This document shows, piece after piece, positions 22,947 through 25,944 of a stretch of DNA of 25,944 bases. Origin of the DNA: a virus; the IMG/VR virus record IMGVR_UViG_3300025276_000195, positions 1 to 25,944 of that record; one strand, written 5' to 3'. Both the position numbers and the translations under genes were made by a program. Numbering within the stretch: the first letter of the stretch is position 1; every line of letters begins with the position of its first letter. The notes below the pieces were generated by a model, which was not told the DNA's origin, made no database searches, and saw only the letters and a list, made by a program, of their open reading frames with translations.

Positions 22947-23603
22947 CTAACAAATTATTATTCGTCTTCTTGAACTACCACTTCCACCAAGACCTTTTAT
23001 TTCTACCCTATCTAATGTTATATTAGTACTCGTAGAAGTTGCTCTTATACTTATTGTACCAGCATTATGTCCAGCAGCACTTATAGCTCCTGTTCCAACT
23101 TGTTTATTAGTATTATGTGTGACAAAAGTTCTGTTTGTTCCTGTTGGTATCTGTTGAGTTGCTACAACACTATTTGAACAAGAGGTAATCATTATTAGTG
23201 AATCTTGTTCAACTACTATATTTTTAGTATTTGGTGTTGATGAACCACCACTTCTTTCGTAGTTCCCAACTCCACCACAATCAGTAAAACTTCTTATATG
23301 AATACTAATTGGATTCCATTGATTTCCAGTAAAACTTATTACACAGTTGTTGTTTCCTGTTGGTGGGTCTACTAGATAGAAAAATCCCATTCTTTGAGAA
23401 AGACCGCTTCTGTTTGTACTATGCAATTGCGTCATAGCTTGACCACCATAAGTACATCCGGAATAATTAACAGTATTTGCCATACACAATTGAACAACTA
23501 AAAATCTATTATTTCCTGTATTTTGAGTATGTGCTTGTGTTTTTGAATTAGCTCCCGGTGTTGGATTTGCATTTGTTACATTTCCGTTAGTTGGTACTGA
23601 CAT
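22947..23603 (-). CDS. Adhesin-like virion protein with C-terminal RRRIIIC, 218 aa
   Basis: One beta-rich domain (residues ~20-203) with the pattern of a common secreted/phage adhesin fold: a start rich in Asn/Thr, NRFLVVQLCM, YGGQAMTQL, GFFYLVDPPTGNNNCVISF, IHIRSFTDC and IMITSCSNS. A flexible GLGGSGSS linker (204-211) is followed by the terminal RRRIIIC. The 331-aa protein at 23913-24908 is a paralogue with the same order of strands and the same last seven residues. The gene follows its 94-aa partner by one base. Its five or more cysteines are unusual for this gene set. A receptor-binding or decoration role is inferred from fold pattern and location near the structural gene at the right edge. 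Confidence 0.85.
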   Translation of the reverse strand: MSVPTNGNVTNANPTPGANSKTQAHTQNTGNNRFLVVQLCMANTVNYSGCTYGGQAMTQLHSTNRSGLSQRMGFFYLVDPPTGNNNCVISFTGNQWNPISIHIRSFTDCGGVGNYERSGGSSTPNTKNIVVEQDSLIMITSCSNSVVATQQIPTGTNRTFVTHNTNKQVGTGAISAAGHNAGTISIRATSTSTNITLDRVEIKGLGGSGSSRRRIIIC

Positions 23604-23604
23604 G

Positions 23605-23889
23605 TTATAATTGGTTTAAGTTAGTTATATGAACAATATTTAAGTTTTCTACGTTTTCTACTTCAGTTCTTGCCTCATTCACTGAATCAATACCATTAAA
23701 AAAAGTACTTATTGATACCTCTCCTATTTCTAGTTTGGTTCTATTTTCACCTAAAAACTTACCTAATGTAGAATCAAATTGTTCATTTACTTCATTTGCT
23801 ATGTTAATATCTTCGGTATATCCGACATCTGTATATTTAAGGTTATCTGTTCCTTCTAATTCTATTTTGCTGATTATATAATATTTCAT
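23605..23889 (-). CDS. Small adhesin-partner protein, 94 aa (paralogue of 93-aa protein)
   Basis: 94 residues, acidic. It shares with the 93-aa protein at 24910-25191 the segments TDVGYT, DS-LGKF-GEN-TKL, VSIS-FF and the ending ITN-NQL. Each copy lies one base before an adhesin gene that ends in RRRIIIC, so the pair was probably duplicated as a unit. It has no signal peptide or membrane segment. A dedicated chaperone, adaptor or tail-binding subunit of the adhesin is the simplest inference; no family is recognised. Its leader is A-rich without an SD. Confidence 0.82.
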   Translation of the reverse strand: MKYYIISKIELEGTDNLKYTDVGYTEDINIANEVNEQFDSTLGKFLGENRTKLEIGEVSISTFFNGIDSVNEARTEVENVENLNIVHITNLNQL

Positions 23890-23912
23890 TTTGTATTGAT
23901 TATTATTTTAAA

Positions 23913-24908
23913 TTAACAAATTATTATTCTTCTTCTTGGTCTTTCCGTTACAGAACCAGTTAAAGCGACTGTTTTCGTTGTTGCCCCAGTAGAAACCAAA
24001 GTAATATTACCAGTATAATTATTTACAGCAAGTCCGGTTTTTAATCTTACATATGTAGTAAAAGGTCCCGTTGGTGGTCCACTATGGGTAAATGCTTGTG
24101 TATAAGTACCAGCTTCGGAATTTGATACTTCGTAATCAGTAGGTGCAGTAGTAACCAAGTCACCGGTAGCATCTGCTATTGAATATGTAATAGATTGTGC
24201 TGTACTAGGTCCACTTCCATCTACATAAGTAAATCCACTTAGTGTAGTAGGAGATACCGTGGTTACTGGTGATGTAGAAACAAATTCTTTAATTTCTAAT
24301 GTTTGATTACTAAGAGTTTTCCAGTTTGCACTAGTTGTGGCCGTTGCGTTTATTGTTCCTGCTGGAAGAACACTATTTGAAACACCAGCACTTAATCTTC
24401 TAGCACCATTCGTAACATTTTTCTTAAATATTACTACGCCATTTATTGTGTTGTTTACTGTTCCAGGTGATGCACTCGAAGTAGACATTAAAATCATTCT
24501 TGAACCGGCAGTTACTGGTGATCTATTTCTTGAATGTGGTCTTGCTGCTGAATCGTTATTTCCAACGATTCCTCCTGATGAAGATGCTCCAGTAAAAGAA
24601 AATACTTGCATACATACTGCTTGATACACACCTCCTGTAAAATCTACCCTAACTTGGTTTGTTCCTGTTGCTGGATTAGGTAAAACCCAAAATCCCCACT
24701 TTGATGAAAATGTACTTGAATTGTAGTATAATCTTGATGTCATCGTTACACCATTATACTTAATAGTTGAAATAGTAGCAGTATTATTATGATTTATACA
24801 AACCACTAAAAATCCATTACTTCCAACATCTTGAGTATGATTATGAGTTACTACTGAACTTCCAGGATTATTTACATCTATTGATTTTGTTCCTACTACT
24901 ATTGCCAT
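23913..24908 (-). CDS. Adhesin with inserted Bacteroidota-type Ig-like domain and RRRIIIC tail, 331 aa
   Basis: Residues ~1-209 are the same adhesin-like domain as in the 218-aa protein (NGFLVVCINHNN, IKYNGVTMTSRL, WGFWVLPNPATGTNQVRVDF, QVFSFTGASSSGG). Residues ~213-320 are an extra Ig-like domain: SPTTLSGFTYVDGSGPS at its start, APTDYEVSNSEAGTYT in the middle, then TTYVRLKTGLAVNNYTGNI and STGATTKTVALTGSV. This motif order is typical of repeats in Bacteroidota secreted proteins. The last eight residues are PRRRIIIC. The domain lies between adhesin and tail, which shows modular assembly. It follows the 93-aa partner by one base. A receptor-binding role is inferred. Confidence 0.87.
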   Translation of the reverse strand: MAIVVGTKSIDVNNPGSSVVTHNHTQDVGSNGFLVVCINHNNTATISTIKYNGVTMTSRLYYNSSTFSSKWGFWVLPNPATGTNQVRVDFTGGVYQAVCMQVFSFTGASSSGGIVGNNDSAARPHSRNRSPVTAGSRMILMSTSSASPGTVNNTINGVVIFKKNVTNGARRLSAGVSNSVLPAGTINATATTSANWKTLSNQTLEIKEFVSTSPVTTVSPTTLSGFTYVDGSGPSTAQSITYSIADATGDLVTTAPTDYEVSNSEAGTYTQAFTHSGPPTGPFTTYVRLKTGLAVNNYTGNITLVSTGATTKTVALTGSVTERPRRRIIIC

Positions 24909-24909
24909 A

Positions 24910-25191
24910 TTAAAGTTGGTTTACATTAGTTATCTCTGAAAGGTCTAATCCTTCAAGACTACTTACTTGTGTAGTAGCTCTATATACAAAACTAGTAACA
25001 TCAAAAAAATCAGATATACTAACAACATTATTATCTAATTTAGTTAGGTTTTCTCCAAAAAACTTACCTAAACTAGAATCGTAATCAATATTTATACTAT
25101 CAATTAAACTTTTATTCGTAGTATAACCGACATCAGTAGTTATAGTTTCGTTGTTTTCTCCTAATTCTACTTTTCGTATAATCGTTATCAT
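24910..25191 (-). CDS. Small adhesin-partner protein, 93 aa (paralogue of 94-aa protein)
   Basis: 93 residues, paralogous to the protein at 23605-23889 (shared TDVGYT, DSSLGKFFGEN, VSISDFF, ITNVNQL). It lies one base after the 131-aa gene and one base before the 331-aa adhesin, so the three are translated together. It is mostly polar with short hydrophobic strands and no membrane segment. Duplication of the partner together with the adhesin suggests a one-to-one functional relationship. Confidence 0.82.
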   Translation of the reverse strand: MITIIRKVELGENNETITTDVGYTTNKSLIDSINIDYDSSLGKFFGENLTKLDNNVVSISDFFDVTSFVYRATTQVSSLEGLDLSEITNVNQL

Positions 25192-25192
25192 C

Positions 25193-25588
25193 TTAATCTA
25201 AATAAGTTATTTCAACACTGCCAGCACTAGGAAAAAATTCTTCAATGATTTGTTTGCCGTAATTACTCATTACATAATGAATAGCACTTAGTCCAGTTTT
25301 TCCACCATCAGAATATGTATATTTATCAGAACCGTCTTCGTTTTCCATTTCAAAGTCTTGTCCCATAATATTCTTTTCAGAATCTGAAATTTTTAATTGA
25401 ATTGTCTTATTAGAATCCCATTCGCTAGCTTCTCCGTAACACCAATTAAAAGGCACATTGAACTTTTGAATTGTTTCTCTTCCTGTTGCTATGTTTCCGG
25501 GACAAGAAATTTTTCTTATTCCGGCTGCGTAGATATCAAGACCTCCAGCCTTAATTCCGCTATTTTCTGTTAAAGTTATAGTTATCAT
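25193..25588 (-). CDS. Unrecognised 131-aa protein of the host-recognition module
   Basis: A small acidic, beta-rich protein with a Gly-rich start (SGIKAGGLDIYAAGIRK), a CPGN turn, the aromatic segment FNVPFNWCYGEASEW and a C-terminal helix HYVMSNYGKQIIEEFF. No family is recognised. It lies one base before the 93-aa gene and 19 nt after the structural gene at the right edge. Its leader contains two ATAAATA-like runs 13 nt or less from the ATG, too close to be called a promoter with confidence. Confidence 0.75.
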   Translation of the reverse strand: MITITLTENSGIKAGGLDIYAAGIRKISCPGNIATGRETIQKFNVPFNWCYGEASEWDSNKTIQLKISDSEKNIMGQDFEMENEDGSDKYTYSDGGKTGLSAIHYVMSNYGKQIIEEFFPSAGSVEITYLD

Positions 25589-25607: not shown

Positions 25608-25944
25608 TTAATCTTGTGTATATCTTATGTCAATACTTAAATAAACATCAGTACCACTTGCGATTGTTGTTTCTAACCAAATCCAACTATTTGCTGGAAT
25701 AGTAGCATCACTTAATGAAGCAGTATCTCCGGTTGTTGTACTTGTTGTTGCAGCACTTGTTGTTAATGCATTACCGGCATCACTTCTAGTAGGATGATGT
25801 TTTAATTGATAAGTTGTACTTGGTGAAGTTCCAGTTGAACATGCGATTACTTCTTGTACTGTTATGGCAACATCCGTTCTAAAAACTGTAATATCATCAG
25901 AAGCAGTTGGTTCTTGTAAAGTAAATGTTTTGTTAAGAGTTTGT
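25608..25944 (-). CDS. Virion structural/fibre protein, N-terminus cut by window edge
   Basis: The frame is open from the right edge to TAA at 25608-25610 and shows the last 111 residues. They are Thr/Ser-rich and beta-like (FTLQEPTASDDITVFRTD, STTYQLKHHPTRSDAGN, IPANSWIWLETTIASGTDV), ending YLSIDIRYTQD. Such sequences are typical of phage head- or tail-fibre decoration proteins. The N-terminus is outside the window, so neither length nor start can be given. Confidence 0.75.
   Translation of the reverse strand, partial: QTLNKTFTLQEPTASDDITVFRTDVAITVQEVIACSTGTSPSTTYQLKHHPTRSDAGNALTTSAATTSTTTGDTASLSDATIPANSWIWLETTIASGTDVYLSIDIRYTQD

Follow-up and report, generated by a model that had tools for sequence, protein, structure and literature searches.

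A fibre gene and two adhesin cassettes

The stretch of DNA analysed here, termed the window, is the complete IMG/VR record IMGVR_UViG_3300025276_000195 (25,944 nt). Judged by two large virion genes, its closest annotated relatives are the Bacteroidota phages MaF61 of Flavobacterium and MA9V-1/2 of Chryseobacterium, together with uncultured megaphages. The window phage is a myovirus of Bacteroidota type, with a contractile tail.

The genes examined all lie on the minus strand. A tail-fibre gene is cut by the window edge, and what is left of it encodes the C-terminal 111 aa of the protein (25608-25943), a domain that we term the class-R fibre tip and propose below as a docking site; in a relative, a full-length fibre of this type has 1121 aa (L103:1903-5268). 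The fibre gene is followed by the gene for a 131-aa protein (25193-25588) and then by two cassettes in tandem, each with a small partner gene and an adhesin gene. The first cassette encodes a 93-aa partner protein (24910-25191) and a 331-aa adhesin (23913-24908), and the second a 94-aa partner protein (23605-23889) and a 218-aa adhesin (22947-23603). The 218-aa protein consists of a body predicted by AF2 to be all-beta, a Gly/Ser linker and a C-terminal tag. The 331-aa protein has a body (about 24270-24908), an extra Ig-like domain and a tag, and the two bodies, though homologous, share no more than 28% identity (alignment A1). The presence of two tagged adhesins behind one fibre may permit mixed or alternative tips.

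A search with the 331-aa protein itself gave no match in IMG/VR or among cultured phages, and its relatives were found only through family alignments. At least three phages have an adhesin with an extra Ig-like domain between its body and its tag; these adhesins are encoded at 23913-24908 of the window, L156:5998-6996 (tag LIRRIIIV) and L191:6657-7727 (tag QRRIIIT).

The RRRIIIC ending is conserved as protein

An earlier note on this DNA had reported that the two adhesin-like proteins diverge through their bodies and yet both end in RRRIIIC. The open reading frames bear this out, and the coordinates and protein lengths that it gave are right. Tag and stop codon together occupy 22947-22970 in the 218-aa adhesin and 23913-23936 in the 331-aa adhesin, both on the minus strand, as placed by the frame ends and a pattern scan. 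The 16 bases said to be identical at the two stops are likewise real, with the plus-strand run TAACAAATTATTATTC the same at each.

A degenerate DNA pattern for RRRIIIC followed by a stop found no further match in the 25,944-nt record, and reversed-pattern controls in the record gave 0 matches. The same kind of scan of IMG/VR returned 28 loci. Matches that end frames of at least 90 aa are all adhesins of one family, including divergent homologues of 210-235 aa, and the remaining matches end frames of 64 aa or less. In a scan for RRIIIT endings, the real proteins again all belonged to this adhesin family; two other matches look like spurious frames.

Judged by its coding, the tail is conserved at the level of protein and not of DNA, because relatives encode RRRIIIC by seven different codon strings and close it with TAA, TAG or TGA. 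The 16-base identity in the window comes from relatedness and A+T-rich codon use rather than from a DNA element. In a literature drawn mostly from outside subscription journals, we found no paper that contains RRRIIIC and none that describes such a tag in its title or abstract.

One body family carries two classes of tag

To guard against circularity, a second family search used a query stripped of the tail (alignment A2), and this yielded 79 loci. The C-termini found on this one body family are of two kinds. Class R follows the consensus RR(R)I[IFLQ][IVN] and then C, V or T; class F follows G[DN]FFxxM/F and typically reads GGDFFMLM or GNFFxMF. The number of class-R loci is small, about 20 distinct ones, and class-R proteins were accepted as members on the basis of either a family body or a class-R tip upstream. 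Among 1780 background genes, a class-R tail occurred twice, both times in true members: one is the 331-aa protein of the window, from a locus that had been clipped, and the other a megaphage protein encoded close to a class-R tip. The rule for F tags is a loose one and matches 42 of the 1780 background genes (2.4%). One 128-kb contig, IMGVR_UViG_3300030110_003801, carries two tip/adhesin loci (L016/L352 and L131/L351) with the endings RRRIIIC and SRRIIVV.

These results give good support to the earlier suggestion that the proteins are modular and that their ending is a tag for sorting, docking or attachment. That suggestion would have failed had related phages lacked proteins with such an end, and related phages do carry it. 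Two further ideas in the earlier note fared less well. The terminal Cys, proposed as a site of modification, is not conserved: the last residue of 24 accepted class-R proteins is C in 12, V in five, T in five, and G and N in one each. A Cys-modification tag is unlikely because relatives end in C, V or T. Recognition of the tag by the 93/94-aa partner proteins is also unlikely. The partner follows the body, is kept when the tag class changes (94% identity between L018 and L236/L237 despite such a change) and is absent from several F-tag systems.

Each tag class is paired with its own fibre tip

The upstream fibre at R-tag loci ends in a homologue of the domain at 25608-25943 of the window, whereas the upstream fibre at F-tag loci ends in an unrelated domain of the form ...KWDVxAV (phrog_3030). 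In a reverse search, these tip domains were used as bait and the ends of downstream genes were scored for the cognate tag. R tips were followed by an R tag in 19 of 20 distinct loci when scored automatically, and in 20 of 20 once the adhesin of L189 was read past an in-frame TAG to its ending, SSRRIFVIG. F tips were followed by an F tag in 80 of 90 loci, and more than 500 IMG/VR contigs carry an F tip. Behind neither kind of tip did an adhesin carry the tag of the other class. L348, which has an RRIIIT tag, was left unscored for tip pairing, as its contig ends at the adhesin.

At several of the F exceptions, the genes listed downstream are all small and none encodes an adhesin, as would fit the end of a contig. 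Behind the F tips of L248, L249 and L231, the next gene bears no obvious tag. At L248 and L249 no recognizable tagged protein lies downstream, which could reflect loss or a third arrangement that we did not see. The F tip of L231 (8775-8981) is followed by an untagged 769-aa gene, and two genes further along a 68-aa ORF has the ending NSNFFLFFNVF and is perhaps a detached tag carrier.

Two other observations concern single loci. The adhesin frame of L189 (456-1160) is broken by one in-frame TAG, due either to a sequencing error or to a phage that recodes TAG. At one R locus, a downstream gene other than the adhesin satisfies the loose F rule.

Counted from the tip gene, the tagged gene usually comes first or second, preceded by the 93/94-aa gene and sometimes also by the 131-aa gene. 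The 131-aa protein (25193-25588 in the window) occurs in only some loci. Its distribution argues that it is not tag-specific, because it is present with both tag classes, including the F-tagged loci L111, L120, L129 and L166.

Tag and tip switch together while bodies are exchanged

A maximum-likelihood tree was built from 72 bodies with the tags excluded. On this tree the tag must have switched about 10 times and the tip 10 times. Among independent pairs on supported branches, tag and tip switched jointly in nine of nine (sign test p=0.004), and the two were concordant in all 66 tree rows in which the tip is visible. As far as the tree can tell, the association of tag and tip is not explained by shared ancestry.

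Near-identical bodies can carry different tags. The bodies of L016 (RRRIIIC) and L098 (GDFFAVF) are 93% identical, and those of L018/L236 and L155/L156, which also differ in tag, are 89% and 92% identical. In the cross-class pairs that we compared, DNA homology starts at the beginning of the 93/94-aa gene (about -270 to -294) and breaks off at nt 605-619 in the adhesin gene, just short of the tag, whereas in same-class pairs it runs on through the tag. The limits of homology in cross-class pairs therefore indicate that the unit traded is the partner gene with the adhesin body and that the tag remains with the fibre.

Some phages differ in tag class within a similar backbone. L156 (R) and L143 (F) have 16 genes in common, among them the gene downstream of the adhesin, and differ in tip and tag; L170 (R) and L161 (F) have 10 genes in common and again differ in tip and tag. 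The tag is not simply hitchhiking with its 3' flank, because L156 and L143 share the downstream gene across classes. By these gene-content comparisons, tag class is set neither by the backbone nor by the 3' flank. A tie between tag class and virion type, which the myovirus of the window and the podovirus-like first F loci might have suggested, was rejected on finding that R and F tags share backbones.

Predicted structures of the adhesin and the tip

All structure predictions were made for single chains. The model of the 218-aa adhesin has a mean pLDDT of 94.2, with an all-beta body at about 98. At residues 207-214, outside the folded body, the pLDDT drops below 50; this segment comprises the linker and the first part of the tag and is predicted to be flexible. 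Foldseek comparison of this model with BFVD returned minor tail proteins from phages of Mycobacterium and Gordonia, among them A0A1C9EHB2 of Tonenili, with a TM score of about 0.7 and E values down to 1.9e-7. The 'minor tail protein' families phrog_553 and phrog_2106 were matched by an F-tagged homologue, L112 (E=1.7e-11 for phrog_553).

The R tip is predicted with confidence to be a beta-sandwich (pLDDT 94.0). Its best solved match is the trimeric phage cement protein 7dou (TM 0.68), and the solved matches also include 9rkv, a tail fibre of Agrobacterium phage 7-7-1. The long tail fibre of 7-7-1 has a triple jelly roll at its C-terminus (PMC12796354).

Sequence comparison of the R tip with solved structures gave no match, and profile comparison of the R and F tips detected no homology between them. 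Between the F tip profile (L105:5448-5711, alignment A4) and the TRAF-like substrate-binding domain of SIAH1 there is a weak match (E=0.0027), possibly due to chance, and no argument here is built on it. This SIAH1 domain binds short peptides.

Tags on other bodies, in cultured phages and in bacteria

By sequence, the tagged proteins group into eight clusters; one of these, L254 (WMHFEIGS), probably fits the loose F rule by chance. Several cultured phages have a tagged protein behind an F tip. In Methylophilaceae phage P19250A this is a 926-aa Gly-rich protein ending TGNFFFMF; the next genes end SNGTFFAFF in Tsukamurella phage TPA4, SGNFFPLIMA in Mycobacterium phage Tonenili, QNFFPLIAA in QBert and AGNFFAFF in Pipsqueaks. 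The Tonenili protein has the body fold of the window adhesin according to Foldseek, so it does not represent an unrelated body. Unrelated F-tagged bodies are found in Gly-rich and MADRYWVGG-type proteins. The cultured phages yielded no member of class R. At L190, however, an R tip precedes an unrelated 190-aa protein that has an R tag (GGRRIFITG), and a megaphage protein of 689 aa, encoded about 3.5 kb beyond an R tip, carries one as well (L176, GRRIFVIS).

Scanning bacterial genomes for R tips revealed one locus, L273, on a 323-kb contig of a Saprospiraceae MAG (JAQXDE010000016.1). An 811-aa fibre-like protein (L273:2889-5324) has a signal-peptide-like start and an R tip at its end. A 642-aa protein (L273:5993-7921) also has a signal-peptide-like start, followed by an extra N-terminal domain and the same adhesin body, and ends TRRVFIVN. 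The neighbouring genes are of bacterial type, and no virion genes were found within the 10 kb examined. Such a locus is present in one of 299 genomes of the same order, and it looks as if a bacterium has put a phage tip/adhesin pair to use. In a Bacteroidota genome with an F tip, the next gene ends NTNFFQMFFFK. The Saprospiraceae R pair and this F pair lie outside the data from which the tags were defined, and both fit the pairing rule.

A proposed docking function and its alternatives

We consider it probable that the window adhesins are exchangeable receptor-binding proteins that are docked by their C-terminal RRRIIIC peptide onto the jelly-roll domain of the fibre tip. The tag would be a flexible docking peptide that holds the adhesin to the tip of the fibre encoded just upstream. 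There would be two such pairs, the R tag with the jelly-roll tip and the F tag with the KWDVxAV tip, and as the tip types have no sequence homology these would represent two unrelated docking solutions. When a host-recognition cassette is swapped, the tag would stay with the fibre, and a foreign body would thus be fitted to the local tip. The tag presumably binds the tip physically, and the R tip would be trimeric. Fold, gene position and gene exchange suggest that the adhesin is part of the virion and that its body binds a host receptor.

A small share of probability goes to the tagged protein being an assembly chaperone of the fibre tip rather than a virion adhesin, with the tag gripping the tip during folding and then being released. 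T4 gp38 is a chaperone of this kind, released after assembly (PMC12892980). The order of fibre gene and tagged gene is that of T4 gp37 and gp38, and covariation of tag and tip would be expected equally. However, the bodies are diverse and either Gly-rich or modular, as expected of adhesins; their homologues are annotated as minor tail proteins, and they are swapped as cassettes. The occurrence of F-tagged bodies in several unrelated families would also be odd for the chaperone of one conserved tip.

It is improbable that the tag docks instead on another part of the virion, such as the baseplate or capsid, that is inherited together with the fibre tip. The data do establish a genetic association and not contact, but tip and tag switch together in the similar backbones of L156/L143 and L170/L161. 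Furthermore, at the Saprospiraceae locus the 10 kb examined contain a tip protein and a tagged adhesin but no virion genes, which speaks for the tip protein itself as the partner of the tag.

Little credence can be given to the conserved 3' end as a DNA site (the IMH of a diversity-generating retroelement, a recombination site or a terminator) or a leftover of tandem duplication, to which the 16 shared bases and the tandem cassettes might point. The tag has seven synonymous encodings and all three stop codons, an unrelated peptide sequence replaces it under the other tip, and in L156/L143 the downstream gene is common to both classes. Least credible of all are a signal for membrane association, lipidation or disulphide formation centred on the terminal Cys, and a site at which the 93/94-aa partner would recognize the tag. 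The basic-hydrophobic-Cys pattern of the two window proteins speaks for such readings, but homologues with the same tip have V or T in place of Cys, and a change of tag class leaves the partner gene in place, while other tagged systems lack it.

Relation to known systems

The proposed docking of adhesins onto fibre tips resembles that of gp38 in the Tevenvirinae phages T2, S16 and PP01. There too, a separate adhesin gene lies closely downstream of the fibre gene on the same strand, and a dedicated part of the adhesin sets fibre compatibility: between PP01 and T2, swapping the N-terminal 113 aa of gp38 restored compatibility with the fibre (PMC12892980). These gp38 proteins cap the tip of the gp37 long-tail-fibre trimer, a position that we propose for the adhesins described here. 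The systems differ in that gp38 docks by a large N-terminal region, whereas the docking proposed here uses a C-terminal peptide of 6-9 residues after a flexible linker. In the window adhesins, the N-terminus belongs to the exchanged body and the C-terminus covaries with the fibre, so the N-terminal attachment of gp38 type was not found. Moreover, the receptor-binding domain of gp38 is a polyglycine-II sandwich, while the window adhesin is predicted to be all-beta with no gp38 among its listed PDB matches, and two tag classes with two unrelated tip domains are present here, unlike in gp38. The arrangement is a variant of fibre-tip adhesin attachment and not a member of the gp38 group, because it is the C-terminus that covaries with the fibre and because the body lacks the polyglycine-sandwich fold.

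The minor tail proteins of Mycobacterium and Gordonia phages (phrog_553, phrog_2106) share the body fold of the window adhesin. Tonenili gp229 carries an F-type tag at its end and lies behind an F tip, whereas Tourach gp24 has the body fold without a tag; the minor tail protein annotations do not describe the tag. Gp015 of phage 7-7-1 (PDB 9rkv) and the KHP40 cement protein (PDB 7dou) have folds like that predicted for the class-R tip. For gp015, the part of the published account that was available describes no peptide-docked adhesin (PMC12796354), unlike what is proposed here. A 3' element conserved at the nucleotide level, as in diversity-generating retroelements, was not found, given the seven synonymous encodings of the tag. 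Nor does the tag behave as a sorting signal of the Bacteroidota-restricted T9SS type, since the F tag is present in Mycobacterium, Tsukamurella and Methylophilaceae phages.

These findings bear on how, in the evolution of host range, receptor-binding proteins can cross between unrelated phages and yet fit the tail. A tag with its matching tip offers a simple and testable rule, in which the body is traded and the tag is kept with the fibre. We lean towards the view that this reflects a general plug-and-socket code in tailed phages, with a few short C-terminal tags that each have their own fibre-tip domain. If so, the code, with R and F as its first two letters, would allow unrelated receptor-binding proteins to be swapped between phages without remodelling of the tail, and a bacterium could even draw on it for a secreted fibre of its own. 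The rule also gives a route to receptor-binding proteins of uncultured phages that resemble nothing known, as the gene behind a tip that carries the matching tag.
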